Below are positions 10,977 to 51,321 of a DNA stretch of 64,000 bases, one piece after another. Made by a program: the position numbers and the translations under genes. Under the pieces are notes generated by a model, which did not search any database, was not told the origin of the DNA, and was given only the letters and a program-made list of their open reading frames with translations. Within the stretch, counting starts at the first letter, position 1, and each line of letters opens with the position of its first letter. This DNA is from Bdellovibrionales bacterium RIFOXYC1_FULL_37_79 (GTDB taxonomy: Bacteria > Bdellovibrionota > Bacteriovoracia > Bacteriovoracales > Bacteriovoracaceae): NCBI GenBank assembly GCA_001770015.1, contig MEQB01000064.1, positions 1-64,000 on the forward strand, written 5' to 3'.

Positions 10977-11948
10977 TTAAATAGGGTTAATGCAAGCCGG
11001 GCGTTGGATAAATTCAATGGCAAGAAATGAACCGGTGGCCTTCTTTTCGACCCTTTTAATTCTTCCAGTAAAGTAGGCCTGACTTTTAGTCGAACCGATA
11101 ATGCCTCGAATGATTTGGTTGGCGGTGAAAGCAAGTTCAATGGAAGTGATGGTGTAAATCAGCATACCATGATCACTAAAATTGATGGTTTCAAAAAAGG
11201 CTTGACCTTCGCCTAGATCGATGGTTATGGGTAATACAATGCTATATCTTACAGATCGTCGCCTACCTGGAATTTCTGGACCGGTAGCCTCTTCATTTAT
11301 TTTGGGGACACTGTAAAGAATCTTTTCCGGTAGCTCGATGGCAGATAATTTTCCGTCATAAACGCAGCCCGTGTCTAGATTTATTTTTTGATTATCCAAG
11401 GTGGCATCCAAGATGGGAGTATGGCCGTGAATAATGGTTTTATTCCATTGATAATTGCTTTTTAAAAAATCCTCCCTGACCCAGAGAAATTGCTCCAAGA
11501 AGATGAGTGGTCTTTGTTTTATTTCTTCCAGGGGAAGTTCGGGCAATCCGGCATGTACAAAAAAATAATCATCGGTTTCATGAAAAAGTTTTAAATTATT
11601 AAAAAAATCAAGGTGGTTTTTGGGAAATTCAAAATTTCCTAATTCGCTACAATAGCTAGACAAAGTAGTGGTTCCGCCATTAAATAAAAAGGCTCCGGCT
11701 TCCAGCGTGTTCTTGTCATAAAAAAAATCTAAAAACATTTGTTCATGATTTCCCATGAGTGTGATGACATTATATTTTTTTGCCAGATTCAAGATAGTAT
11801 TGACCACTCCCTTGGAATCCTTGCCCCGGTCTATATAATCGCCTAGAAATAAAATGGTGTCAGAGTCCTTAAAAGGAAGTCGGGTTAGCAGTAATTCTAA
11901 CTCTTTATTACAACCATGGATATCGCCTATGGCAAATAGCTTTCCCAT
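10977..11948 (-). CDS. PPP-type protein phosphatase fused to a PilZ domain
   Basis: A 323-residue fusion. Residues 1-215 form a PP1/PP2A-like metallophosphatase: GDIHG (8-12), GDYIDRG (36-42), GNHE (66-69), VHAGLP (131-136), HGHTP (174-178) and LDTGC (191-195). After a short linker, residues about 228-315 form a PilZ domain with the c-di-GMP motifs RxxxR (R230-R234) and NxSxxG (N256-G261). By family knowledge the PilZ part should bind c-di-GMP and could gate the phosphatase. It is the last gene of a four-gene signalling operon with an HD-GYP gene, 5 bp after the receiver gene, which makes c-di-GMP control plausible. The substrate is unknown. Confidence 0.9.
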   Translation of the reverse strand: MGKLFAIGDIHGCNKELELLLTRLPFKDSDTILFLGDYIDRGKDSKGVVNTILNLAKKYNVITLMGNHEQMFLDFFYDKNTLEAGAFLFNGGTTTLSSYCSELGNFEFPKNHLDFFNNLKLFHETDDYFFVHAGLPELPLEEIKQRPLIFLEQFLWVREDFLKSNYQWNKTIIHGHTPILDATLDNQKINLDTGCVYDGKLSAIELPEKILYSVPKINEEATGPEIPGRRRSVRYSIVLPITIDLGEGQAFFETINFSDHGMLIYTITSIELAFTANQIIRGIIGSTKSQAYFTGRIKRVEKKATGSFLAIEFIQRPACINPI

Positions 11949-11953
11949 AATAG

Positions 11954-12409
11954 TTACTCGGTTTTTTTAGATTTCATTAATTTTTGATAAGCGGTTATGG
12001 TTTCCCCGTCTTGTTTTGAACTGGTATTGGTTTTTTTGGCATGATTGAGGGCTTTTAATACAATTTCCTCCAGCGATTCAAAATGAGGTTTGTTTAAAAA
12101 GTCAAAAGCGCCATATTTGAGGGCATCCATCATATATTGTTCTGATCCATATCCTGTGAAAAAAATGAAGGGTTTATCAATTTTACACTCACGGGCGTTT
12201 TTAATAAAGGCCATACCATCCATAATGGGCATTTTAATATCGCTTAAAATCACATCAATCTCAGAATGTTTTTTAACCAGGTTGAGAGCATCCAGGCCAT
12301 TATGGGCAGTAAAAATGGTGTCAACGAAGGGAGTAAGCATGGTCTTTAAGATCTCGACAATGTGTACCTCATCATCAACAATTAAAATAACTTTTTTTTC
12401 AGTCGTCAT
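11954..12409 (-). CDS. Stand-alone response regulator receiver
   Basis: A 151-residue single-domain receiver with a short Lys-rich tail. It shows the acidic pair in ILIVDDE, the phospho-acceptor in VILSDIKMP, the T switch in FIFFTGYGS and Lys in FLNKPH. There is no output domain, so it probably passes a phosphoryl signal or binds a partner. ATG 12409 follows GAGG. A longer frame reaching 12445 would overlap the upstream gene and is rejected. Gaps to the neighbours are 10 and 5 bp, so it belongs to the HD-GYP/PilZ operon. No histidine kinase is encoded nearby. Confidence 0.9.
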   Translation of the reverse strand: MTTEKKVILIVDDEVHIVEILKTMLTPFVDTIFTAHNGLDALNLVKKHSEIDVILSDIKMPIMDGMAFIKNARECKIDKPFIFFTGYGSEQYMMDALKYGAFDFLNKPHFESLEEIVLKALNHAKKTNTSSKQDGETITAYQKLMKSKKTE

Positions 12410-12419
12410 AAATACAACC

Positions 12420-14078
12420 TCATAATTTACTCTTGTGTGAAGCACTGGCTTCGCGTTTTATTTCAGGAACTTTTTCAATTTTTTGCGGCTCTTCAGTCAT
12501 AACCCGGGGAGCAGCCTTGATTTGTTTTTGGAGTTCCTCATCAATTAGTTTGATATCAAATAAAAACTCTTTCGGTCTTTTGAAAAGCAGGTAATTAACA
12601 AATTGCCGCATGGTTTGCAATTGGATCTCACTTACGGTGTGGATAAATCCCATATAGTGTTTACGACTTCCTTGATTTTCTATTTGCCGGGTGGAAGGAA
12701 CCACCGTCACATATAAATCAAATGGCTGGTCAAATTTGATGGTGGTATAGTAGGGAATTTCAAATTCACACAAGAAGGTTATTTCATGCTCGGTCAAACT
12801 GGTTATGGTGGTGTTTCTTTTTACTTCAATGATTCTGCGATTGTCAGTTAGATGAAATTTAAAAGTCTGGTCAGGTTCAACTTTTTCAATATAATTTTTT
12901 TCAAAGTTTTCCAGGAGTTGTTTTACCAGACTCATGGATATTTCAGCCGGAGAGGAGATAATGGCGTTATAGTTGTAAACTTTTTGACTGGCTTCGCTGG
13001 AAGAGGGGTTGTTAAAGGTGACGATCACCGGAATATATCCAGGAAATGTTCGAATGAGTGTCACAATTTGGGTCAAAGTATTCAGGGAATTGGGAAGCCT
13101 GTGGGGAATATTGAATTTTTCATCTTCATCGTGAAGATTGTCAAAGGAGAAGATAATTAAATTGGGTTTTAATATTTTTATGATTTCCAGTCCACTATGC
13201 AGGTGACTGATAAAATAAAAGTTGATTTTTAAATTTTGATATTGGGAAAAATCAGTGAGAAACTCCAGGGAGTTGCTGACGATAAGCACACTGCTATAGA
13301 TGGATTTGAGTTGCTCACGATTAAAATCGATCCATGTTTCAAAGGTATCCTTTTGCATGCTATCTTCGGTGATTTCATCCCAGGGACCGGCAAACGGGAT
13401 TCTAAATTCGGCGTTATATAAATAATCGTAGTAAATGGAGCTTTCTTCCTTAAAGGAGACATCAAATTTTTTTATTTTAAATTCAGGGAATAAATTGGTT
13501 CTGGCTTCAATATCCTCATCGATTTTAGGTTCAATATCGCTTTCAATTTGAAGCGCATCACTACTTATTCCTGTAATGGTGGAAGGGGCATGAAAATAAT
13601 GATTGAGGGCCAGATGATCAGCAATGGCATATTTGGGGAATTTGGCATTTTCCTCATAGGCAATATAAAAGGAGTCATTAAAAAAAGTATCATCATTTTC
13701 TCCTTTGATGTGGGAGTAAACGATAATTCCGCTGGCGGCAATGAATTTAATATTATTAAACTCTTCCAAGGAGGTAAAAAGACTGAAAATGGGAACTGGT
13801 CTGAAAAGATGATGTCTTTTAAGTATTAAAAGATGTGAAAGCAGGTCACTGATCAACTTGGTATCAAGATATATTTTGGAAAAATCCAAAATACAAAGGT
13901 GTGGCATCATTTTGATAAAAGTTTTTGATAACTCGACAATGAGGTCAGGGTTGTCCGTGATAACAATTTGTTTGGTCAGCACTGTCTCACGACTACATTT
14001 TCGATCATAGAAACTTTTTAAATCCCTAAAAAAGATATCATCGTCGCCAATATATAGAATTTTTCGGTTATCTGTCAT
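12420..14078 (-). CDS. Large protein with two receiver-like domains and a PilZ-like C-terminus
   Basis: A 552-residue soluble protein not matched to a named family. The N-terminus (KILYIGDDDIFFRDL, LCILDF) and a central region (SVLIVSNSLEFLTDF, NLIIFSFDN) have the alternating strand/helix look of receiver domains, both apparently degenerate. Around residues 400-490 a beta-rich stretch (FHLTDNRRIIEV, ITSLTEHEITFLCEFEIP) resembles a PilZ domain lacking the full RxxxR/NxSxxG signature. A Lys/Glu-rich tail follows. It lies between HD-GYP and receiver genes with 9-10 bp gaps. A scaffold role in c-di-GMP signalling is inferred. Confidence 0.6.
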   Translation of the reverse strand: MTDNRKILYIGDDDIFFRDLKSFYDRKCSRETVLTKQIVITDNPDLIVELSKTFIKMMPHLCILDFSKIYLDTKLISDLLSHLLILKRHHLFRPVPIFSLFTSLEEFNNIKFIAASGIIVYSHIKGENDDTFFNDSFYIAYEENAKFPKYAIADHLALNHYFHAPSTITGISSDALQIESDIEPKIDEDIEARTNLFPEFKIKKFDVSFKEESSIYYDYLYNAEFRIPFAGPWDEITEDSMQKDTFETWIDFNREQLKSIYSSVLIVSNSLEFLTDFSQYQNLKINFYFISHLHSGLEIIKILKPNLIIFSFDNLHDEDEKFNIPHRLPNSLNTLTQIVTLIRTFPGYIPVIVTFNNPSSSEASQKVYNYNAIISSPAEISMSLVKQLLENFEKNYIEKVEPDQTFKFHLTDNRRIIEVKRNTTITSLTEHEITFLCEFEIPYYTTIKFDQPFDLYVTVVPSTRQIENQGSRKHYMGFIHTVSEIQLQTMRQFVNYLLFKRPKEFLFDIKLIDEELQKQIKAAPRVMTEEPQKIEKVPEIKREASASHKSKL

Positions 14079-14087
14079 ATATGGTTA

Positions 14088-15500
14088 TTATACCTTGTCT
14101 CCCTTAGGCATTTCAAGTGTTGTAAAAATTTGGGCAAAGGCCACAAAAAGGTTTTGATCAAATCTTTGCAGGTTTTTTTCGTCTCTCATCATTTCGGTGA
14201 AAGCTTCCACCGGTTTGACTTTTTTTCTCTTCATAATGACCGCACATAAATCAACCAACCCGACGATTTGGGCCAGGGGATAAATTTTAATTCCAGTTAT
14301 TCCTCTGGGAAAACCTCCGCCATCAGCTGTCTCGTGATGTTGAAAAACTATTTGCTTAATGGGTTCTTTAACGCTCGGCATGTCAGCCAGCATATCCACC
14401 CCGAGCTGAGGATGTTGTTTATATTCTTTCAATTGTTCTTCACTCATATCCTTCGTATCAAGTAATGATAGAGTTTTTGACAGTTTTAGTTTGCCAATAT
14501 CATGCAGCATGGCCCCCATGGTGACTTTTTCCAAGGTTCCCCGGGTGGCCCAGGACAACTTGTTGCAAATAAGAGATGAAAAGAAAACCACCAGGAAAGC
14601 ATGAGAATAGGCGTTTGGATCAAAATCTTGTAATTGTTTTATAACATTGCTCAGCTTGGGGTCTTCGTGAATCAAGCTATCAATATGTTTGCATATATCC
14701 TTACCATCTTCAATTAAATGGGGCTGGATACCGTTGGTATAGATTTCTTCCACATATTTTTCAGTCATGTTTTTAATGAGGGATACTTTTTGAGTGGTGG
14801 AAACCGATTTCATGCTCATAACTTTTTCGAGCAGTTTGTTCATATATCTTACATATAATCCCCGGTCCTGGGTTCTAAAGTAGAGATATTCCACATTTTT
14901 TTCAGAGCGATATTTTTTAATGGTTTCCGGCTCAAAGGAATCACCTGCATGTAAAAGTTTTATATAGTGATTGGGACTAACCCGTACAAACAAATCAAAA
15001 ACAGACTTGTTTCCAGATAAGAACTCTGTAATTTTAACCCGGGTGAATTCATCGTCTCTGGCCCGTATGGAGGTTCCTTCCTCGCTATAATCACGTTTCT
15101 TTTTAGAGGCATTTTTCCACATGCTAAATTGCAGTTCACCTTCTATGGATCTCATTAACTGGTCTTGGGTGAAAGGTTTGGTGATGATATCGGTGACACC
15201 AATTTTGGTGAGCATCTCTTTTTCAATACCAATCTCATCAAAAACCTTTGGGGTTTTAATGGTTAAGATGACTTTGGAAGAGGGGCTATTGACGTTGATG
15301 TATTTCAATACCTCGATGACACTATGATCCTTGGTCTCCCAATCTATGATGACCGCAAAAAATTTGGTTTTATAGATTTTAAGCTGGGCCATTTTACCAG
15401 TGAAGGCACAGTCTGTGGCGTATGATGAGCCGGCCAAGTAACTGCAAACTTTGTCTCTCCATTCGTTATCTGGTTCAATGATCAGTATGTTTAATGCCAT
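14088..15500 (-). CDS. Receiver-linked HD-GYP domain protein
   Basis: A 470-residue protein. The N-terminus is receiver-like (LIIEPDNEWRD, AVIIDWETKD, Lys in ITKPF). A linker leads to an HD-GYP domain with HDIGK (about 332-336), HPQLG, HHE and DGGGFPRG, where the usual GYP is GFP, plus a late Asp in VGLVDLC and RFDQNL. HD-GYP enzymes hydrolyse c-di-GMP. Metal ligands look present, but the GYP to GFP change and the altered downstream motif could reduce activity. It is the first gene of the operon. AAGGAAG precedes ATG 15500. Confidence 0.87.
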   Translation of the reverse strand: MALNILIIEPDNEWRDKVCSYLAGSSYATDCAFTGKMAQLKIYKTKFFAVIIDWETKDHSVIEVLKYINVNSPSSKVILTIKTPKVFDEIGIEKEMLTKIGVTDIITKPFTQDQLMRSIEGELQFSMWKNASKKKRDYSEEGTSIRARDDEFTRVKITEFLSGNKSVFDLFVRVSPNHYIKLLHAGDSFEPETIKKYRSEKNVEYLYFRTQDRGLYVRYMNKLLEKVMSMKSVSTTQKVSLIKNMTEKYVEEIYTNGIQPHLIEDGKDICKHIDSLIHEDPKLSNVIKQLQDFDPNAYSHAFLVVFFSSLICNKLSWATRGTLEKVTMGAMLHDIGKLKLSKTLSLLDTKDMSEEQLKEYKQHPQLGVDMLADMPSVKEPIKQIVFQHHETADGGGFPRGITGIKIYPLAQIVGLVDLCAVIMKRKKVKPVEAFTEMMRDEKNLQRFDQNLFVAFAQIFTTLEMPKGDKV

Positions 15501-15625: not shown

Positions 15626-16666
15626 TTAGTGTTCATGTTTGTGATGAATATCGGGGTAATGAATGTGACTGTGGGTAATTTTATGATGAAAGTGCTGGTG
15701 GGAGTGTTTTTGACCAGGAGTGATGCCTTCATGGAAGTGATCATGATGTTTATCATCATGGGAGTGCTCATGCAAATGATTGACTTCATGGTGGGTATGT
15801 TCATGGTGGTGATGTTCATAAATTAACAAAGCAATGCCAATGATCATGAGTAAAAATGCGATTACAAATTCCATGCTCAGCATGGTTTGAAAAATCATAA
15901 AGGAGACTATGCTTCCCAGAAAAGGATTAATTGAGAAAATAATTTGGGATCTGGATGCTCCAATATTTCTGGCAGAGTTGATATAAAGTATGATGCTGAG
16001 TCCATAAGAAAAAGCCCCTATGATTAATGCGTAAAAAACATCATTAAGTATAATCAGGCCATTTTCAAACATTAAAAACATTAAAAAATTAAATGATCCG
16101 GCAAAAAAACCTTTCAGGATGGTATTAACAGTGGGTGAAATGGATGCTACATTGGCGGTCAAATTGTTGTCAATTCCCCAAAAAATACATGCCAGGATAA
16201 TGAGGGCCCCTCCATAATTGATGGAAAGATTAAAATTGATAACCAGCAGGCTTCCGGCAATCACGGTTAAAATTGATGATAAAATGACTTTGGTACTCAG
16301 ATGTTCCTTGAATACAAACCAGGCAAAAAAGGAAGTGGCTACAGTTTCCATATTGAGAAGCAGTGAAGCTGATTCAGGAGAGGAATATTTGATACCGTAA
16401 AGGAGTGCTACCGGTCCGGTTATTCCTCCGAAAATAATAGCACCGGCAATTCTTTTAAGATCTGACTTATGACTGATCAGTTGACTGATTTCGTTTTTTA
16501 AATTTTTAATTTTAAAAGGCAGTAAAAAAAGAGCGGCTCCCAGATAAAACAGGGAAGCAAGTAGCAGGGGGGAATTGTTGTGATTTAAAATAAGTTTGGA
16601 AAAAGGGGTGGACAAACCAAATAAGAAAGCCGCCAGGATGGCATGAACGATATAGATTTTTTTCAT
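15626..16666 (-). CDS. EamA-type (DMT superfamily) transporter with His-rich C-terminal tail
   Basis: A 346-residue protein with about ten hydrophobic segments in two EamA halves (start AILAAFLFGLSTPFSKLIL; second half from YGGALIILACIFWGIDNNL). The last 60 residues after IALLIYEHHHHEHT contain about 27 histidines plus acidic residues. That tail looks like the metal-sensing or metal-chelating loops of zinc, nickel and cobalt transporters, and it is unusual for EamA proteins, which mostly carry small organic solutes. The start overlaps the end of the upstream gene by 4 bp, implying an operon. Metal export or binding is an inference. Confidence 0.88.
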   Translation of the reverse strand: MKKIYIVHAILAAFLFGLSTPFSKLILNHNNSPLLLASLFYLGAALFLLPFKIKNLKNEISQLISHKSDLKRIAGAIIFGGITGPVALLYGIKYSSPESASLLLNMETVATSFFAWFVFKEHLSTKVILSSILTVIAGSLLVINFNLSINYGGALIILACIFWGIDNNLTANVASISPTVNTILKGFFAGSFNFLMFLMFENGLIILNDVFYALIIGAFSYGLSIILYINSARNIGASRSQIIFSINPFLGSIVSFMIFQTMLSMEFVIAFLLMIIGIALLIYEHHHHEHTHHEVNHLHEHSHDDKHHDHFHEGITPGQKHSHQHFHHKITHSHIHYPDIHHKHEH

Positions 16667-17556
16667 AATGCCTTCATAATTAACTGGTAAAGAGTAGGAA
16701 TGGTTTCTTCATGTTTGGCAATAATAGAAAGGCCCAGTCCTCCCAGTGAAGTCGGTCTTTCCACCACGTTAACGGTGGGCCTATAATGTTTAATCATATC
16801 CATATTAGCGGCAGTGAAATTTTTAACCTGATAATTTAAATTTCGTACGACAGTGAAGGCCTTTAAAAAAACTTCAGGCATGATCACTGCTGAACCAATA
16901 TTGACCACCACTCCATCTTCCAGTTGGGTTAGGGATTTCGCTAATATTTTAAAATCCAAATAAGAAGTTTGTCCCATGGCGGCACCATCACACCGGGGAT
17001 GTTGATAGATGATTTCTGTCCCGATAGCCGTGTGAACGGTGAAAGGGATTTTTTTGTGATAGGTCCAATATGAAAGGCTGGCTTCTTTGAAAGGGAGATT
17101 TTTTTCAGCAATCATTTTGCCAATAGCTTCACCCATTCCCAGGTTTTTTTTGCTTCCATTTATGATGGCCTCATTTAACATGCTTCCAGTTTCCTCACTC
17201 ATTCCGAAACTTCCATCCTCGATACTTTTGGCAACATCCTCGGAAGTTTCTCCAATCAGGGCAATTTCAAAATCATGAATAGGAAGTGAGCCATTAACCG
17301 CCACATGTCCGATGATACCTCTTTTGACCAGGTCAATGATAAAAGGGGTGCATCCCACTTTTAAAACGTGTCCTCCCAGCATAAAAATAATTTTTTTATG
17401 ATTTTTATAAGCGGCGACTATTTTATTAGCAAGAATGGGTAAATTTTTATCCGGAAGAAGAGGGTATTTTTGGTTGATATCAAAAAAATTGATCAGTTTC
17501 TCTTTGTTTTTTCTGGTTTTGATTGGATAGGTTTTAATTTTAGAAAAATCTAGCAT
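16663..17556 (-). CDS. Conserved protein, possibly deoxyhypusine-synthase-like fold
   Basis: A 297-residue soluble protein of unknown function. Visible features are IIFMLGGHVLKVGCTPFIIDLVKRG, HVAVNGSLPIHDFEIALIGETSEDVA, a central Gly/Lys segment, PFTVHTAIGTEIIYQHP and VVVNIGSAVIMPEVFLKA. The GGH...D..G...H...NG.....D pattern and the late GSAVI.PE segment give a Rossmann-like impression similar to deoxyhypusine-synthase-like bacterial proteins. I would not assign that reaction without a profile search. It forms a 4-bp-overlap pair with the His-tailed transporter, so the two may act on one substrate. Confidence 0.55.
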   Translation of the reverse strand: MLDFSKIKTYPIKTRKNKEKLINFFDINQKYPLLPDKNLPILANKIVAAYKNHKKIIFMLGGHVLKVGCTPFIIDLVKRGIIGHVAVNGSLPIHDFEIALIGETSEDVAKSIEDGSFGMSEETGSMLNEAIINGSKKNLGMGEAIGKMIAEKNLPFKEASLSYWTYHKKIPFTVHTAIGTEIIYQHPRCDGAAMGQTSYLDFKILAKSLTQLEDGVVVNIGSAVIMPEVFLKAFTVVRNLNYQVKNFTAANMDMIKHYRPTVNVVERPTSLGGLGLSIIAKHEETIPTLYQLIMKAL

Positions 17557-17685: not shown

Positions 17686-18504
17686 ATGAAATATAATGTT
17701 TTATTTTTGGCGATTACGATCATGATATCCTGGAATGTTTTTTCCTTTAACCCTGATGAATTATTTGTAAATGGCTATTATCATCAGGATGAAGTTCTTA
17801 CTCCAGAGGAGGGGATTATCATCAACGCCAAAGTGGATGGAGAATATCAAAATTTTGTTCTAGCGGCTTTCCCGCCATCTTTTATGGAATGGAATATTAA
17901 AAAAAGAAAACAGGCCATTAATGACATCGTTGAGCATCAACCACCACATTTAAATGGACCTCATAACGGAGTGGTGGCCACCTATGGATATAAAAGAAAT
18001 GATTCTTTTTTTGCGCTTAATAATTCAGTCAAAGGTATGGGATTTATTCCTCGCAGGGATACCATCAAAGAATTGATGATTAATCTTAAATCCACCCAAA
18101 ATGAACCTTATAATGTCAAACTGGGAGTGATCAGGGATTTGTATGATAATGTTGAAAAATGGTTTGATTTACATGGCCAGATTTCATTGGAACTTTATAG
18201 TGAAAGACAATTTTTAACCCAAACCTTTTTAAACCAGGCCTTTAATCCGGTCTCAACTATTGTTTACCTAGATATTCCTTCTTATAAATTTAAAGCGATT
18301 ACCCAGCTTCTGGATCCGCATGATCCCACCTTGACCGGATATGCACGGGATCTGGCTGACTATGCAAATTTGATTCATAGCTATTTTCATGGAGAGTTTA
18401 CCAAGGAATTTATTGCGGTCATTTACTGGGCAATCGAAATATATGATAATTCCCCCGGAAGATTGGATGCCCGGGGTTTGCGAATTGTTCCTCCGATGCC
18501 CTAA
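17686..18504 (+). CDS. Secreted protein of unknown function
   Basis: A 272-residue product with a signal peptide (MKYNVLFLAITIMISWNVFS) and GGGGAGG upstream of ATG 17686. The mature part has no motif I recognise. It contains LAAFPPSFMEWNIKKRKQ, a GVVATYGYKRNDSFFALNN stretch and VSTIVYLDIPSYKFKAI, suggesting a mixed globular domain, and only non-paired Cys. It is followed after 16 bp by a small gene with a strong ribosome site, so the two probably form an operon. Confidence 0.7.
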   Translation: MKYNVLFLAITIMISWNVFSFNPDELFVNGYYHQDEVLTPEEGIIINAKVDGEYQNFVLAAFPPSFMEWNIKKRKQAINDIVEHQPPHLNGPHNGVVATYGYKRNDSFFALNNSVKGMGFIPRRDTIKELMINLKSTQNEPYNVKLGVIRDLYDNVEKWFDLHGQISLELYSERQFLTQTFLNQAFNPVSTIVYLDIPSYKFKAITQLLDPHDPTLTGYARDLADYANLIHSYFHGEFTKEFIAVIYWAIEIYDNSPGRLDARGLRIVPPMP

Positions 18505-44068: not shown

Positions 44069-44168
44069 GATTAGTTTTTAGAAGACAAGTTTCTTGCTTT
44101 TTTACAAAGCCTATCTTATTTTAACAACTGATTTCCCCCTCAAAATTTTTATTCCAAAAGGGATTTTT

Positions 44169-46172
44169 ATGAACTTTGTTCTAATCGCTATTTTTGCGTT
44201 TTTTGTTTTTGGTGTTTTAGCTCTTTTTACAGGAAACCAGAAAAGCATTATGGCGGATCTTATTCGCACCTGTGGCCCGATTGGCGGATCCATTCTAGGA
44301 TTGATACCCGTTATCCAGGTTTTGGCAGGCAAAAAAATAAGTGCTTTTATTATGCCTTGGGAGTTGTTTAATGGTTCCTTCTATCTGGAAATTGATCTGT
44401 TATCAGCTTTTTTTCTTTTGCCGATTTTTATTTTGACCATTCTAGCTTCATTTTATGGTTTTTCCTATTTAAAGCAATATGCCAATCAACGCAACCTTGG
44501 TTCGATCGCATTTTTCTTTAATCTATTTATTATGAGCATGGTTTTGGTGGTTTGTGCAAAAAATATTATTATGTTTTTGCTCGCATGGGAATTGATGGCA
44601 CTCACTTCTTTTTTTCTGGTCATGTTTGAAAGTGAAAAAAGTCTTACCAAGTGGACTGGGTGGCTTTATATGTCGCTTACCCATTTGGGAACCGCTTGTT
44701 TGTTTGTCTTTTTTTTCATGGCGGCGGATGGTGCACTATCTTTTGATTTTGGAGATATTGCCATAAGTTTTGATAAAAATAAAACCTCCCTCTGTTTTCT
44801 GCTGGCGCTGATTGGCTTTGGTACCAAGGCTGGCATGATCCCTTTTCATATTTGGTTGCCGGAGGCCCATCCAGCTGCACCAGCACATGTTTCGGCTATC
44901 ATGTCAGGGGTTATGATCAAGACGGGGATTTATGGAATATTAAGAACCATTTTGTTGATAGGGGTTCCGGGGTTATCTTGGGGCATTGTTTTAATTATTT
45001 TGGGTGCTCTTTCCGGGGTCATTGGAATTTTATTTGCGCTGGCACAACATGATATTAAAAGATTGCTGGCCTACAGTAGTGTGGAAAATATCGGTATTAT
45101 TTTACTAGGCTTGGGCCTTGGGGTGGTTGGTATTAAAACCCAATCGCCTGTGATGGGTGTGCTGGGGCTGGCGGGAGCATTTTTGCATATTTTAAATCAT
45201 GCTTTTTTTAAAGGGTTATTATTTTTTGGGGCGGGATCAGTGATTTATGCCACTCATACGAATCGTATTGATGAGCTTGGGGGAATTTTAAAACGCATGC
45301 CACTGACCGGGCTGACTTTTTTTATTGGATCGATTTCCATTTGTGGATTACCACCGTTTAATGGTTTTATCAGTGAGCTATTTATTTATATGGGATCATT
45401 CAAGGAAATTGTGGTGGGTGATTTTGATAATACGTCAATTTTATTGCCCATTATAACCATTCTTGCCCTGGTGACGATTGGCGGATTGGCAGCGCTGTGT
45501 TTTACCAAAGCCTTTAGTATTATTTTTCTTGGTGAACCAAGGTATAAATTTAATCACGAGATAAAAGAATCTCCGGCCTTTATTGTTTATCCGATGCTTG
45601 TTTTATGTGCAATTTGTGTGATGGTTGGTGTTTTTCCAAGTTTGATTTTGCCAATTCTTGAAGAACCCGTATCCCTGTTTTTTTCTAATGAAGTAGTCAG
45701 GAGTACTTTTGTACCCATGGGGGAAATGTTTGGCATTATGACGTACGTCTATTTGTCGTTGATAGGGTTTATAACCTTAATTGCAATTGTCAGGAATATG
45801 CTTGTCAAGCGCAGGTCTTATCAAACGACAGTGACCTGGGATTGTGGATATATAAGGCCTCAGGCTACCATGCAGTACACGGCATCGTCCTTTGTAGAAA
45901 CTCTGGTGGATATTTTTTCTTTTATTTTAAGAACCAAGAAAACCATGGATAAACCTTCGACTTATTTTCCGCTGAAAAATGCCGGATTAAACACCCGGAC
46001 TGCAGATACTTTTGCTCAGAAATTGTATTATCCGGTTTATTATTTTTTTAAAGGACATATGTTCAAATTGTTAAAGATCCAGTACGGCAATATTAATTTG
46101 TATATGTTTTATATTATTCTTACCTTGGTCATTATGCTGTCAGTGAATTTATTAACCAGGAGCGAGCTGTGA
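44169..46172 (+). CDS. Ehr/group-4-hydrogenase-like antiporter subunit (HyfB-like)
   Basis: A 667-residue polytopic NuoL/HyfB-type subunit with about 16 helices. Features are AKNIIMFLLAWELMALTSFFLVM (lysine-linked glutamate helix), FGTKAGMIPFHIWLPEAHPAAPAHVSA, QHDIKRLLAYSSVENIGII and NHAFFKGLLFFGAGSV, all conserved proton-channel helices. A C-terminal segment (TVTWDCGYIRPQATMQY) matches HyfB. ATG 44169 follows AAGGGA; the longer frame is rejected. It is the first of six co-directional genes (overlaps or gaps under 20 bp) forming one complex. Confidence 0.93.
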   Translation: MNFVLIAIFAFFVFGVLALFTGNQKSIMADLIRTCGPIGGSILGLIPVIQVLAGKKISAFIMPWELFNGSFYLEIDLLSAFFLLPIFILTILASFYGFSYLKQYANQRNLGSIAFFFNLFIMSMVLVVCAKNIIMFLLAWELMALTSFFLVMFESEKSLTKWTGWLYMSLTHLGTACLFVFFFMAADGALSFDFGDIAISFDKNKTSLCFLLALIGFGTKAGMIPFHIWLPEAHPAAPAHVSAIMSGVMIKTGIYGILRTILLIGVPGLSWGIVLIILGALSGVIGILFALAQHDIKRLLAYSSVENIGIILLGLGLGVVGIKTQSPVMGVLGLAGAFLHILNHAFFKGLLFFGAGSVIYATHTNRIDELGGILKRMPLTGLTFFIGSISICGLPPFNGFISELFIYMGSFKEIVVGDFDNTSILLPIITILALVTIGGLAALCFTKAFSIIFLGEPRYKFNHEIKESPAFIVYPMLVLCAICVMVGVFPSLILPILEEPVSLFFSNEVVRSTFVPMGEMFGIMTYVYLSLIGFITLIAIVRNMLVKRRSYQTTVTWDCGYIRPQATMQYTASSFVETLVDIFSFILRTKKTMDKPSTYFPLKNAGLNTRTADTFAQKLYYPVYYFFKGHMFKLLKIQYGNINLYMFYIILTLVIMLSVNLLTRSEL

Positions 46173-47032
46173 TTACTATCATTTTGGCCTTGATTCTCTC
46201 ACCTTTACTGCTTGGTTTTGTTAATCAAACCAAGGCTTTTTTTGCCGGGAGAGTGGGAGTGCCTTTTACACAGCTATATTTTGATCTTTTTAAACTTTTT
46301 AAAAAAGATTTTGTGTATAGTAAGACCACCACCTGGGTTTTTCGGGCCGGTCCTATCGTGAATATTTCTGCAGCTTTGATCATATTATTTTTCCTGCCTC
46401 TTTCCGTCATGAGTTTTAAAGGGGACATTATATTGGTTATGTATCTGTTGGGGTTGATGCGTTTTTTTACTATTGTTGCTGCCCTGGATACAGGATCGGC
46501 TTTTGAAGGGATGGGGGCAGCCCGGGAAGTGCTCTATGCTATTTTTGCGGAGATCGTGGTGTTTACCAGCCTGATCGCTTTAGTTTATTTGACCCAGAGT
46601 TTATCTTTGGCGGAGATTTTTGGAAAAATTTCCCCGTATCATTGGACACATTATGGCCCCACCCTTGGGCTTATTTCTTTTGTCTTGCTGGTAATACTCT
46701 TGTTGGAAAATTGCCGTATCCCGTTTGATGACCCCAATACTCACCTGGAATTAACCATGATTCACGAGGTGATGGTGCTAGATCATGGTAGTTTTGATTT
46801 TGGGTTAATTCAGTATGCAAGTTCGTTAAAATTGTGGATTTGGTGTTCAATGCTTGCCCATGTATTACTTCCAATTTCATCCATATGGAGCAATGTGGTG
46901 GGAATTTTTTTGATCTCAATATTGGTTGGTATCGTGGAATCCACCATGGCAAGGTTTAAATTAATTAGAATTCCCCAGGTTCTGCTTGCCTGCTTTGCTT
47001 TATCAATCCTTTCTTTGTTTTTAATGAGGTAG
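46169..47032 (+). CDS. HyfC/NuoH-like membrane subunit
   Basis: A 287-residue protein with about eight helices. It starts with GTG overlapping the hyfB-like stop. Signature stretches are FAGRVGVPFTQLYFDLFKLFKKDF, DTGSAFEGMGAAREVLYAIFAE and ENCRIPFDDPNTHLELTMIHEVMVLDHG. The last two are the quinone-site-like, acid-bearing loops shared by HyfC, HycD and NuoH. This subunit docks the peripheral arm to the membrane. It is expected to couple redox chemistry to ion transfer. Confidence 0.93.
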   Translation: MITIILALILSPLLLGFVNQTKAFFAGRVGVPFTQLYFDLFKLFKKDFVYSKTTTWVFRAGPIVNISAALIILFFLPLSVMSFKGDIILVMYLLGLMRFFTIVAALDTGSAFEGMGAAREVLYAIFAEIVVFTSLIALVYLTQSLSLAEIFGKISPYHWTHYGPTLGLISFVLLVILLLENCRIPFDDPNTHLELTMIHEVMVLDHGSFDFGLIQYASSLKLWIWCSMLAHVLLPISSIWSNVVGIFLISILVGIVESTMARFKLIRIPQVLLACFALSILSLFLMR

Positions 47033-47035
47033 TAT

Positions 47036-47629
47036 ATGCAATTTGCCCAGATAATAATGATTCTTCTGATCTTTTTAAATTTTTGGATTTTAGGGGTGAG
47101 CCGGATCAGGTCTTATATAAAAATTTTATCTTATCAGGGCGTTTTGATTGGTTTGATTCCCATCTTGCGGCTTAATCTTGAAATGGTGACCCTCGGAATA
47201 ATCGTACTTTTATTGAAGGCCATTATTTTTCCCAGATTATTATTAAGGATGTCAAAAAAAATCAAGGCCACCAAAGAGGAGAAACCATATATTTCTTTGG
47301 CGCTGGCACCCCTTTTGGGCGCTTTATTTTTGTTGATAGCTTCCAGAATTTCCTATGAGCTTATGACCCCAATTTTTATTATCATCGTGGGTTTTTTTCT
47401 CACTATTACCAGACGAAAGGCCATCAACCAAATTATCAGTTTTATGATTTTTGAAAATGGTATTTTTATTTTGGGATTTACAATGGCAGCTCATTTCCCA
47501 ATTATTGTGGAGATGGCCATTTTACTGGATGTTTTGGCCGCAGTTTCAGTGATGGTTCTGTCGCTTGATAAAATAAATCAAACATTCACCCATACAGATG
47601 TCGATAAACTCGACTCATTAAAAGGTTGA
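47036..47629 (+). CDS. HyfE-like (NuoK-related) membrane subunit
   Basis: A 197-residue protein of about six hydrophobic segments. AIIVLLLKAIIFPRLLLRMSKK-type LKAIIFPRLL and FMIFENGIFILGFTMAAHFPI, with the glutamate embedded in the helix, fit HyfE, the NuoK-related subunit of formate hydrogenlyase and Ehr complexes. It starts 3 bp after the hyfC-like gene and overlaps the next by 4 bp. Confidence 0.85.
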   Translation: MQFAQIIMILLIFLNFWILGVSRIRSYIKILSYQGVLIGLIPILRLNLEMVTLGIIVLLLKAIIFPRLLLRMSKKIKATKEEKPYISLALAPLLGALFLLIASRISYELMTPIFIIIVGFFLTITRRKAINQIISFMIFENGIFILGFTMAAHFPIIVEMAILLDVLAAVSVMVLSLDKINQTFTHTDVDKLDSLKG

Positions 47630-49095
47630 TAACCATGCATGCATCAATATTGCTTCCGCTTTTAATTATTATTCCCGTTTTTTTTGCTCTCCTTGCCAAA
47701 TGGATATCAAGGACCCTGGAATGGATGTTGATAGGGGTTACCTTGACTCTGGGTATAGCTTTTTTTCTAACCTTTACGATGGTCAGTACCAACCAGGTTA
47801 TTTATTCATTTTCTCGTTGGTTATTCCTTGATCATCTTTCCGCTTATTATCTTTTTATGATGATTTTGGTTTTTTGGATGAGTTCGCTCTATTCGTTGAT
47901 CTACTTTAAAAAAAGTGATTTGAGTGCCTCATCACTTAGCACCTTTTCCATGTTGTGGTTACTTTCTATGAGTGCGGTCATGCTGGTGCTTTTATCCAAT
48001 CATGTGGTTTTAATCTGGGTTGGATTGGAGGCAACCACGGTTTTCACCACTTTTTTGATAGCGCTTCATCAGAGTAAAAAATCGCTGGAAGCCATGTGGA
48101 AATATCTCATCATCTGTTCGCTCGGAGTTGCCTTTGCCCTGATTGGAACGATTTTGCTGGCTGCCTCCACCCATGGTTTGGACCACAACATGGAGAACGT
48201 TTTGCTATGGACGAATCTTAAAACTCATGCGACCTTGCTGGATACATCTCTTTTAAAAATCGCTTTTATTTTTATTTTTGTAGGGTATGGTACCAAGTCT
48301 GGTCTTGCCCCTATGCATACCTGGTTACCAGATGCTCATAGCCAGGCACCCTCGCCGGTTTCTGCATTTTTTTCTGGATTTATGATTAATACAGGCATTT
48401 ATTGTATTGCCCGTTTTATTCCTATTATCGAGGCAGCTACAAAGCACTCCGGGTTTGCCTTGCAGTTTGTGGGGATTATGGGAGCTATTTCCATCATGCT
48501 GGCGGCAATCTTTATTTTTTTTCAAACCGATTTAAAACGGCTGCTTGCTTATAGCAGTGTTGAGCATATGGGGATTATAGCCCTTGGGCTTGGTCTGGGG
48601 GGGGTTGGTACCAGCGTTGCCCTTTTTCATTCACTTAATCATTCAGTATGTAAAACCCTTTCATTTTTTTCAGCGGGAAGGATCGGGCAAATATATGAGA
48701 CTCACGATATGAAAAGTATATCCAGCACTATCAACGTCAATCCAGTCTGGGGAGTGGGATTGCTGGTCGGATTGCTGGCCTTGATTGGGATGGCCCCTTT
48801 TTCTATTTTTATGAGTGAACTTCAATTGATAAAAGTAGCGGTGGGGACACGTTCTTGGTTGTACCTGGTGGTTTTTTTAGTGGGAACCAGTATTGTTTTT
48901 ATTGGAATTTTAAGACAGGCGATTGGAATGTCTTTTGGCAAAATAAAAGGTGGTACTGTTGAAATTGGAAAACCGGTCGAATATATACTGGTGATTCTTT
49001 TGGTCATCATCATAGCAGGGCTTGGTGTGTTTATGCCCGAATCGTTGTGGGGCTTTATTTTAAAGGCCGCAAGCGTTGTTAACGGAGTTAAATAG
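47626..49095 (+). CDS. Second antiporter-like subunit (HyfF-like)
   Basis: A 489-residue NuoN/HyfF-type subunit. It shows LIWVGLEATTVFTTFLIALHQS, GYGTKSGLAPMHTWLPDAHSQAPSPVSA, FQTDLKRLLAYSSVEHMGIIALG and HSLNHSVCKTLSFFSAG, which are the proton-pathway helices. With the HyfB-like gene this gives two antiporter-type subunits in the operon; no third (HyfD-like) one is present. Two such channels suggest more ion translocation per cycle than in the single-channel hydrogenase-3 type. Confidence 0.92.
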   Translation: MITMHASILLPLLIIIPVFFALLAKWISRTLEWMLIGVTLTLGIAFFLTFTMVSTNQVIYSFSRWLFLDHLSAYYLFMMILVFWMSSLYSLIYFKKSDLSASSLSTFSMLWLLSMSAVMLVLLSNHVVLIWVGLEATTVFTTFLIALHQSKKSLEAMWKYLIICSLGVAFALIGTILLAASTHGLDHNMENVLLWTNLKTHATLLDTSLLKIAFIFIFVGYGTKSGLAPMHTWLPDAHSQAPSPVSAFFSGFMINTGIYCIARFIPIIEAATKHSGFALQFVGIMGAISIMLAAIFIFFQTDLKRLLAYSSVEHMGIIALGLGLGGVGTSVALFHSLNHSVCKTLSFFSAGRIGQIYETHDMKSISSTINVNPVWGVGLLVGLLALIGMAPFSIFMSELQLIKVAVGTRSWLYLVVFLVGTSIVFIGILRQAIGMSFGKIKGGTVEIGKPVEYILVILLVIIIAGLGVFMPESLWGFILKAASVVNGVK

Positions 49096-49097
49096 GT

Positions 49098-50531
49098 ATG
49101 ATTTATAAAACAAAAATTTCCCAAATTCCGCTACTGCCTTTGGGGGCACTTAAAAATGAATTAGTGAAAAAAGAGAAAAGGTTATCGGCTCTTTTTTTTC
49201 ATCCCGCCGACCGGCATCTATATGTGGTTTGCTCGGATGATGAAAAAGGAGAACTCAGTCTAGTTAAAACTCCAATCGAAACCTATCGTTATGAATCCCT
49301 CACTCCCGCTTATCCGGCAGCTCATTTGTTTGAGAGGGAAATTCTGGAAACCCATCAAATAGTGCCTGAAAATCATCCCTGGCCCAAACCAGTCAGATAT
49401 CTCAAGGATCTTATTGGCGATACTAATTTTTACAGGATCGAAGGATTGGAATCTCATGAAGTGGCGGTCGGGCCGGTTCACGCTGGGGTGATTGAACCCG
49501 GGCATTTTCGATTTCAATGTCATGGGGAGACTGTTTATCATTTGGAGATCTCCCTGGGATATCAACACCGTGGGATTGAAAAAAAATTAATTGGTGGACC
49601 TTCCCTGCGAACACTCCCTTATATGGAGACCTTGGCCGGCGATACCAGCATTGGACATGCGTGGGCCTTTTGCAAAAATATTGAGTCATTGTCCAACGTG
49701 GTGGTGGGTGAGAGGGAGAATCTGCTTCGGGCCATCATGCTTGAACTGGAACGATTGGCCAATCATACCGGTGATATGGGAGCTTTGGCCGGAGATGTTG
49801 GCTTTCTACCCACTCTTTCCTATTGTGGTCGCTTGCGGGGTGACTATTTAAATATGTCTGCGTTTATATGTGGAAGTCGCTTTGGACGGGGTATGCTGAA
49901 ACCTGGTGGCGTTTCCTTTGATCTAAGTCTTGACCAAATTAAAGAATTGGAATTAAAACTGGACAATGTTTTTAAAGATACCAAAGGTGCCATCAACGTT
50001 TTATGGCATTCCAATATGGTTTTAAATCGATTTGAAGGTACTGGCGTCATAACCCAGAAGGAAGCCCGTGATTTGGGGTTTGTGGGGATGGTGGCGAGGT
50101 CCACGGGACTTAATCTGGATGTTAGAAAAAATTTCGATCACGGGGATCTGTATAATGATTTGTCTATAGCGGTTTGTGACTCAGGTGATGTCTTTGCCAG
50201 AGCAACTTTGAGATGGTTGGAAATGAAAAATTCCTATACATTTATAAAGAGTGCTCTTAACAAACTTAAAAAGGCCCCCCCCCTTAACCCGATCAAGCCA
50301 GGACCGCTCGAAAGTGATAGTTTGGCGGTTTCTTTGGTGGAAGGCTGGCGCGGGGAAATCTGTCATGTAAACATCACCAATAGTGTGGGAATGTTTTCAA
50401 CTTATAAGGTTATCGATCCATCCTTTCATAATTGGACCGCTTTGGCCTTGAGTTTAAGAAATCAGGAAATATCAGATTTTCCTCTTTGCAATAAGAGTTT
50501 TAACTTATCCTATTGCGGTCATGATCTTTAA
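49098..50531 (+). CDS. Hydrogenase-like large subunit without NiFe ligands (HyfG/NuoCD-like)
   Basis: A 477-residue subunit fusing a NuoC-like N-terminus (LYVVCSDDEKGELSLVKTP) to a NuoD/hydrogenase-large-like body. VGPVHAGVIEPGHFRF and LEISLGYQHRGIEK are normal. Where group 4 hydrogenases have CGxCxxxH, it has GDTSIGHAWAFC (about 180-191). At the C-terminal DPCxxC site it has DPSFHNW (about 439). The four Cys that bind NiFe are thus missing, so hydrogen chemistry is unlikely. A C9 tract (50275-50283) encodes part of KAPPLNP. Confidence 0.92.
   Translation: MIYKTKISQIPLLPLGALKNELVKKEKRLSALFFHPADRHLYVVCSDDEKGELSLVKTPIETYRYESLTPAYPAAHLFEREILETHQIVPENHPWPKPVRYLKDLIGDTNFYRIEGLESHEVAVGPVHAGVIEPGHFRFQCHGETVYHLEISLGYQHRGIEKKLIGGPSLRTLPYMETLAGDTSIGHAWAFCKNIESLSNVVVGERENLLRAIMLELERLANHTGDMGALAGDVGFLPTLSYCGRLRGDYLNMSAFICGSRFGRGMLKPGGVSFDLSLDQIKELELKLDNVFKDTKGAINVLWHSNMVLNRFEGTGVITQKEARDLGFVGMVARSTGLNLDVRKNFDHGDLYNDLSIAVCDSGDVFARATLRWLEMKNSYTFIKSALNKLKKAPPLNPIKPGPLESDSLAVSLVEGWRGEICHVNITNSVGMFSTYKVIDPSFHNWTALALSLRNQEISDFPLCNKSFNLSYCGHDL
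50275..50283 (+). repeat. C9 homopolymer inside the large-subunit gene
   Basis: Nine consecutive C bases occur within the HyfG-like coding region at about codon 393, in a GC-poor gene. Length change by one or two bases would truncate the protein. Confidence 0.9.
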
Positions 50532-50547
50532 ATGGGAGTGATATAAA

Positions 50548-51321
50548 ATGTTAGACGTATTACGAGAACGCTTCAAACAAAAGAAAAGAACTTCCGCTTA
50601 TCCTAAGAAACCGGTGCAGCTTTCAGAAAGATTTAGAGGCAGGCCCCAGATTGATTTGAATCTATGCAAAAGCACGGAGTGCGTGGAGTGTGAAAAAGTT
50701 TGTCCGACCGGTGCGATCACATGTAAAGATCAAAAACCATCCATAGACCTCGGCAAATGTCTTTTTTGTTTGGAGTGTTCCAAGGCCTGTCCCACTCAGG
50801 CGATTTCCTTTACCAATGATTATCGCTTGGCGACCTCTCGAAGAAGTGATCTGGTTTTATCGGCTCCAGATCATTATGAGTTAAAAAAGGCACAGGCCCT
50901 CAAAAAAGAAATGTTAAGACTCTATGGAAGATCCTTGAAGCTTAGACAAATCAGTGCGGCTGGATGCAATGCTTGTGAAGCTGACACCAACGTATTGGGA
51001 ACCTTGTTTTTTGATTTATCCCGTTTTGGTATTCAGATCGTTGCTTCTCCCCGACATGCCGATGGTATTTTAGTGACCGGGCCGGTTTCTAAAAATATGG
51101 AAGTGGCCCTTAGAAAAACTTATGAAGCGGTACCGGGACCTCGTATTGTCATTGCCACCGGAGCTTGTGCGATTTCGGGCGGAATTTTTTCAGGCCATGA
51201 GGAAACATGTGGCGGGCTTGATGCCATGATTCCGGTTGATCTTTATATCCCCGGTTGTCCTCCTCATCCTATGACTATTCTGGATGGATTACTGCGCTTA
51301 CTCTCTCAAAAAACCAACTAA
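50548..51321 (+). CDS. Ferredoxin-NuoB-like fusion (HyfH-HyfI)
   Basis: A 257-residue fusion. Residues about 33-90 form a two-cluster ferredoxin with CKSTECVECEKVCPTGA and CLFCLECSKACPTQA. From about 130 follows a NuoB/HyfI-like domain with GCNACEAD, VTGPVSKNME, ATGACAISGGIFSG and IPGCPPHPMTILDGLL, keeping the four Cys of the proximal [4Fe-4S] cluster. Its electron chain would lead to the large subunit. HyfH and HyfI are often separate genes in hydrogenases; the fusion here ends the operon. Confidence 0.93.
   Translation: MLDVLRERFKQKKRTSAYPKKPVQLSERFRGRPQIDLNLCKSTECVECEKVCPTGAITCKDQKPSIDLGKCLFCLECSKACPTQAISFTNDYRLATSRRSDLVLSAPDHYELKKAQALKKEMLRLYGRSLKLRQISAAGCNACEADTNVLGTLFFDLSRFGIQIVASPRHADGILVTGPVSKNMEVALRKTYEAVPGPRIVIATGACAISGGIFSGHEETCGGLDAMIPVDLYIPGCPPHPMTILDGLLRLLSQKTN

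Follow-up and report, generated by a model that had tools for sequence, protein, structure and literature searches.

YcgR-type effectors carry a C-terminal regulatory PilZ domain, with an RxxxR motif in the linker to the preceding domain, and many PilZ proteins are without a known output. In Bdellovibrio bacteriovorus, phosphorylation of the tail of the FHA-GGDEF cyclase DgcB has been proposed to turn the enzyme on; a phosphatase gene, Bd0740, which has been placed in PF10049, lies in the operon of DgcB, and it has been suggested that a phosphatase acts as the counterpart of this phosphorylation (PMC6733907). A further described relative of the proteins analyzed here is the unconventional Bdellovibrio HD-GYP protein Bd1817, which was reported to be without the GYP tyrosine and to be catalytically inactive (PMC4159591).

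We analyzed a stretch of 64,000 nucleotides from Bdellovibrionales bacterium RIFOXYC1_FULL_37_79, referred to here as the window, in which four open reading frames on the minus strand are packed in one string. In order of transcription, these genes encode an HD-GYP protein (gene 1), a 552-residue protein (gene 2, P552), a stand-alone receiver (gene 3, REC), and a phosphatase-PilZ fusion (gene 4, PPP-PilZ). The intergenic gaps measure 9, 10, and 5 bp, and the string is set off by 125 and 127 bp from its neighbors, an EamA transporter gene upstream and a malic enzyme gene downstream. These are thus four real, tightly packed genes on a single strand, as a preliminary description of this DNA had reported. 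Its reading of the locus as a four-gene operon agrees with this layout but fails as an account of a conserved four-gene unit, since three of the genes are conserved together and PPP-PilZ has a separate history. The four genes are presumably co-transcribed; in a promoter scan, the number of matches was not above that obtained with shuffled sequence. Elsewhere in the window, two open reading frames near the cluster (16663-17556, 297 amino acids, and 17686-18504, 272 amino acids) were without a Pfam match at 0.001, and positions 44094-51321 encode consecutive membrane and iron-sulfur subunits, which by eye resemble a complex of the group 4 hydrogenase or formate-hydrogenlyase type.

Architecture and distribution of the PPP-PilZ fusion

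The last gene of the string (gene 4; 10977..11948, minus strand) encodes a protein of 323 amino acids, for which Pfam and AlphaFold bear out the earlier claim of a PPP phosphatase fused to a PilZ domain with intact RxxxR and NxSxxG motifs. Residues 4-180 matched Metallophos (1.4e-17) and residues 229-313 matched PilZ (1.2e-6), the latter with a score of 29.2 bits, which is above the curated cut-off of 22.5. The PPP catalytic domain spans about residues 4-215 (11304..11939, minus strand) and contains the motifs GDIHG, GDYIDRG, GNHE, HAG, and HGHT; the PilZ domain (11010..11264, minus strand) has six predicted strands. RxxxR occupies residues 230-234 in the interdomain linker (11247..11261, minus strand), and NxSxxG, which reads NFSDHG, corresponds to residues 256-261 (11166..11183, minus strand). 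The AlphaFold model is confident (pLDDT of 88.8) and shows the C-terminal domain as six-stranded, with strands at residues 240-244 and 249-257, and RxxxR and NxSxxG are positioned as described for the c-di-GMP motifs of canonical PilZ domains (PMC12943098). A search of the open-access literature yielded no paper on a fusion of PilZ with a phosphatase, and the enzyme is apparently unstudied.

In our preferred reading, to which we give about even chances, gene 4 would encode a c-di-GMP-gated PPP-family phosphatase that was recruited beside a receiver. The PilZ domain would bind c-di-GMP via the RxxxR of the linker and NxSxxG, and this binding would switch the phosphatase on or off by altering how the barrel is placed against the catalytic domain, by analogy with what is generally known of YcgR-type effectors. 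We infer the binding of c-di-GMP, the gating, the protein substrates, and the coupling to the neighboring genes. If the sensor controls the phosphatase, a single protein would link two major bacterial signaling systems, and the joining of PilZ to PPP would provide a direct route from c-di-GMP to the dephosphorylation of proteins (or nucleotides).

In the alignments, the PPP motif residues (GDxHG, GDxxDRG, GNHE, and the histidine motifs) were invariant. PilZ was matched in 9 of the 12 relatives aligned, and R230, R234, N256, and G261 were nearly invariant across two phyla. This conservation, along with the fully canonical motif of the window copy, argues against the alternative in which the PilZ domain, without binding c-di-GMP, serves a structural or protein-docking role and the phosphatase is controlled otherwise, for example by the receiver. 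We consider this alternative unlikely, although the serine of NxSxxG varies within the family, with Asn or Thr in several relatives and the sequence DYNEFG at locus L039, and although many PilZ domains in general do not bind c-di-GMP. Examples of such nonbinding domains have been described (PMC12943098).

The preliminary description had suggested looking for the fusion in other genomes, and it is indeed present there. A class-level search of 129 genomes retrieved full-length fusions of the clade from five genomes besides that of the window, one of which contained two copies. The wider phylum search added further families, and a collection of named records contributed two more from Bdellovibrionota and two from Myxococcota. 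In a maximum-likelihood tree, 11 fusions from Bdellovibrionota and Myxococcota formed one clade (support of 100/97), within which the window copy and that of locus L040 were sisters (99/96). Among the sequences found, the fusion is thus of single origin. A twelfth candidate (L045) fell outside the clade, was without the PilZ motifs and had no PilZ match, and was rejected as a member; the other loci retrieved in the scan of named records encode stand-alone PPPs of approximately 205-250 amino acids where the open reading frame was readable. The fusion is usually a solo gene, mostly with no c-di-GMP genes alongside. The PilZ match, the conserved motif residues of both domains, the confident model, and the single clade are in favor of the preferred reading of a gated phosphatase; against it count this isolated position, the variable serine of NxSxxG, the Met that precedes GNHE in the window copy, and the usual absence of PPP-PilZ from the string formed by the other three genes.

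The HD-GYP/P552/REC module

Gene 1 (14088..15500, minus strand) encodes a protein of 470 amino acids that consists of a receiver-like N terminus, a linker region, and an HD-GYP domain. The preliminary description had called it a receiver-HD-GYP protein. Its HD domain is secure, with a Pfam match to HD_5 of 1.4e-20 over residues 294-451 and with the HD pair and further metal ligands kept in the window copy (YSH, LHDIGK, HP, HHE, and VD). The receiver part is weak (Response_reg, 7.6e-6, below the curated cut-off), and the GYP motif is not present as such: the sequence HHETADGGGFP has GFP in its place, so that the tyrosine is gone, as it is in most homologues from such clusters, which also have GFP. 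The nearest structure in the PDB is that of Bd1817 (3tm8, 1.4e-20), which aligns over the linker and the HD domain and which, like gene 1, is without the tyrosine; a receiver-like domain at the N terminus sets gene 1 apart from Bd1817. The HD pair or other metal ligands are missing from the HD-GYP homologues at loci L056, L057, L059, L063, and L065, and such losses suggest that many of the cluster homologues are inactive. Hydrolysis of c-di-GMP by gene 1 is possible, but it is uncertain because of the GFP motif, the loss of the HD pair in several homologues, and the reported inactivity of its nearest solved relative, Bd1817. The earlier statement that hydrolysis and sensing of c-di-GMP and the dephosphorylation of proteins are united in this string consequently goes beyond the evidence: the fusion with its c-di-GMP motifs stands, and the phosphodiesterase activity is uncertain.

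P552 (12420..14078, minus strand) matched nothing in Pfam or NCBIfam and had no direct match in the PDB; Pfam also found nothing in 17 members of its family. Relatives were detected in 92 of the 129 class genomes at E ≤ 0.001, whereas at E ≤ 1e-20 the phylum sample contained P552 in the window's own family only (33 of 192 genomes). Family members measure about 460-700 amino acids, often occur in several copies per genome, and have no Pfam or NCBIfam name. The protein contains two related, putatively receiver-like halves, at about residues 5-105 (13764..14066, minus strand) and 254-350 (13029..13319, minus strand), which hhalign relates to each other at 94.8%. The family (A2) profile weakly matches the response regulator 3n53 in the first half (profile positions 24-100, E of 0.0062) and the LuxO receiver 3cfy in the second (positions 254-327, E of 0.0098), and a comparison of the second half with the REC family gave a P value of 7.5e-4 in hhalign. 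Of the two features that had been ascribed to P552, the receiver-like halves are therefore backed by profile work, if by weak matches and without Pfam, and the PilZ-like end could not be shown. Pfam did not support the latter in any of the 17 members, nor did fold prediction, for which the model was unusable, or profile comparison with 7 local PilZ domains, a set later widened to 36; the profile comparison gave a P value of 0.17, in a test that returns only 59.8% for the true PilZ domain of the fusion.

P552 has a conserved C-terminal KSKL (12420..12434 including the stop codon, minus strand). After a variable linker, each of the 17 members in the alignment terminates in -KL, for the most part as KSKL; RKL or SKL, and in one case KRA, stands at the end of more distant cluster members, and the noncluster paralogue L171 is without a -KL ending. 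The residues are kept while the codons vary among relatives, which rules out that the ending is a by-product of the downstream ribosome-binding site, and a peroxisomal signal is ruled out by the bacterial host. The ending looks like a putative docking peptide.

REC (11954..12409, minus strand) is the stand-alone receiver that had been noted earlier, a CheY-like protein of 151 amino acids with a Response_reg match of 2.4e-23 and, in the family alignment, the canonical DD/D/T/K residues. The start is placed at the ATG at position 12409, which has a GAGG ribosome-binding sequence upstream; a 163-amino-acid form that starts at a GTG overlaps the preceding gene.

The HD-GYP, P552, and REC genes were consecutive in 15 of the 16 loci with both flanks available, a figure that covers the subfamily of best P552 matches and not distant paralogues such as L170 and L171. 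The sole exception was L054, in which the HD gene lies on the opposite strand. PPP-PilZ was absent within the examined flanks of these loci, and a conserved four-gene operon is thereby rejected for the loci examined: HD-GYP/P552/REC is conserved, and PPP-PilZ is normally not part of it. The four genes are two units, namely, the HD-GYP/P552/REC module and a PPP-PilZ gene with its own history, and the module is older than the placement of PPP-PilZ there. In the genomes searched, the module with the P552 family was confined to one family-level group, in which it represents a conserved c-di-GMP-linked unit whose middle protein matched no named family.

Among the loci examined, the fusion follows the HD-GYP/P552/REC cluster in the window only. 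In 15 of the 16 testable loci the module lacks PPP-PilZ, which as a rule lies elsewhere, as would be expected if the module were the working unit and PPP-PilZ had come to lie beside it by a chance rearrangement, so that the four genes form no functional unit. We hold this explanation to be a real possibility, if a doubtful one. Against it stand the gap of just 5 bp on the same strand and the arrangement in the closest relative (G064), in which HD and P552 are located at one contig edge with no receiver open reading frame starting at the place of REC, whereas REC and PPP-PilZ are paired on a different contig, next to an efflux gene. The same is argued by locus L039, in which a different receiver adjoins the fusion. 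Receivers of two types are thus found directly upstream of PPP-PilZ, one in the window and L040, whose REC proteins group together (86/93), and a distant one in L039. Two such neighbors by chance would be uncommon, since, of the 62 receiver matches in the genome at 1e-10, fewer than half are in short stand-alone frames. At L044 (6245-7605), PPP-PilZ shares one base at its start with a stand-alone PilZ gene. The upstream receivers and this overlap lend modest support to a functional pairing rather than to chance. Under the preferred reading of a gated phosphatase, its placement behind the module would bring the expression of PPP-PilZ, and possibly its activity, into a receiver-controlled c-di-GMP circuit.

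Kinases, FHA proteins, and a DgcB-like cyclase in the genome

The window genome (4.36 Mb) contains 17 PilZ, 4 GGDEF, 15 FHA, and 3 Hanks-kinase matches. No Ser/Thr kinase match was obtained on the window's contig, in agreement with the earlier remark that no kinase is encoded nearby, and the three Hanks-type kinases are encoded elsewhere in the genome. One of them lies within 1 kb of a GYF-PilZ gene, in a row on contig C1 (L166, 1669-5409) that comprises a PilZ protein with two GYF_2 domains, a small lipoprotein-like open reading frame, and the Hanks kinase. A DgcB-like FHA-GGDEF cyclase is encoded approximately 7 kb beyond this row (L231, 1269-2288, contig C1).

The presence of an FHA-GGDEF homologue and of Hanks kinases makes it likely that a phosphothreonine-to-c-di-GMP route exists in the window genome. 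Protein substrates of the fusion are plausible because the genome encodes three Hanks kinases, one of them near the GYF-PilZ gene, and the DgcB-like FHA-GGDEF protein; the most likely targets would be phospho-Ser/Thr proteins made by these kinases. Joint occurrence of the fusion and the cyclase was discarded as support, since the cyclase (L231, 1272-2177) is near-universal in the class and conserved at about 59-66% identity in almost every genome of the class that was tested; it was not found in G064, a genome that is 95% complete and contains PPP-PilZ. As a concrete type of phosphatase in relatives of Bdellovibrio, the fusion is a candidate for the suggested DgcB-limiting activity (PMC6733907).

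A more elaborate scheme can be drawn from these components, which we regard as quite improbable as a whole. A Hanks kinase would phosphorylate the DgcB-type FHA-GGDEF protein, the resulting rise in c-di-GMP would activate PPP-PilZ as a phosphothreonine phosphatase, and the latter would dephosphorylate the cyclase and other FHA targets, closing a feedback loop whose threshold would be set by the receiver module via the HD-GYP protein.

Comparison with known phosphatases and PilZ effectors

The preliminary description had labeled the phosphatase PP1/PP2A-like. This label proved too specific, since bacterial and trypanosomal PPPs match better by both sequence and fold: the PnkP phosphatase, a trypanosomal ALPH-type phosphatase (2qjc), lambda PP, and ApaH were nearest, with PP1/PP2A behind them, and membership in the PP1/PP2A group was rejected on these grounds. 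All NCBIfam equivalogs matched by gene 4 scored below their cut-offs.

Several of these data bear on what the enzyme acts on. A basic residue before GNHE is part of the signature of Ser/Thr phosphatases; it is absent from the window copy, which has Met at this place (LMGNHE), whereas L040 reads LKGNHE and lambda PP and PphA read VRGNHE. In the PDB, the PnkP phosphatase and a putative diadenosine tetraphosphatase come closest to the PPP domain in both sequence and fold, and the highest NCBIfam scores include those of the ApaH-type Ap4A hydrolase and polynucleotide kinase-phosphatase, all of them far below cut-off. These three observations are in favor of a PPP domain that acts on a small molecule, for instance a dinucleoside polyphosphate such as Ap4A or another nucleotide, with PilZ linking this activity to c-di-GMP. 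We nevertheless judge such a substrate rather unlikely, because the fusion keeps DRG and GNHE as in lambda PP and PphA/PphB, whereas E. coli ApaH has ARG and GNHD, and because lambda PP aligns over the whole catalytic domain.

Taken together, the fusion as a putative c-di-GMP-gated protein phosphatase can be set beside three known systems. Lambda PP (NinI) and E. coli PphA and PphB share with it the GDxHG, GDxxDRG, GNHE, W-R, GHT, and DTG blocks. These enzymes end after the catalytic domain, which in the fusion is followed by a linker and PilZ; the basic residue before GNHE, in addition, is missing from most fusions. The likeness to YcgR-type effectors, drawn from general knowledge, lies in the C-terminal position of PilZ and in the RxxxR of the joining linker; in the fusion, PilZ is joined to a metallophosphatase and not to a YcgR-N domain, and no flagellar link is known for it. 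With respect to the DgcB/Bd0740 system, Bd0740 belongs to PF10049 and has not been described as a PilZ fusion, unlike PPP-PilZ, and the window genome has in common with this system an FHA-GGDEF homologue and Hanks kinases.
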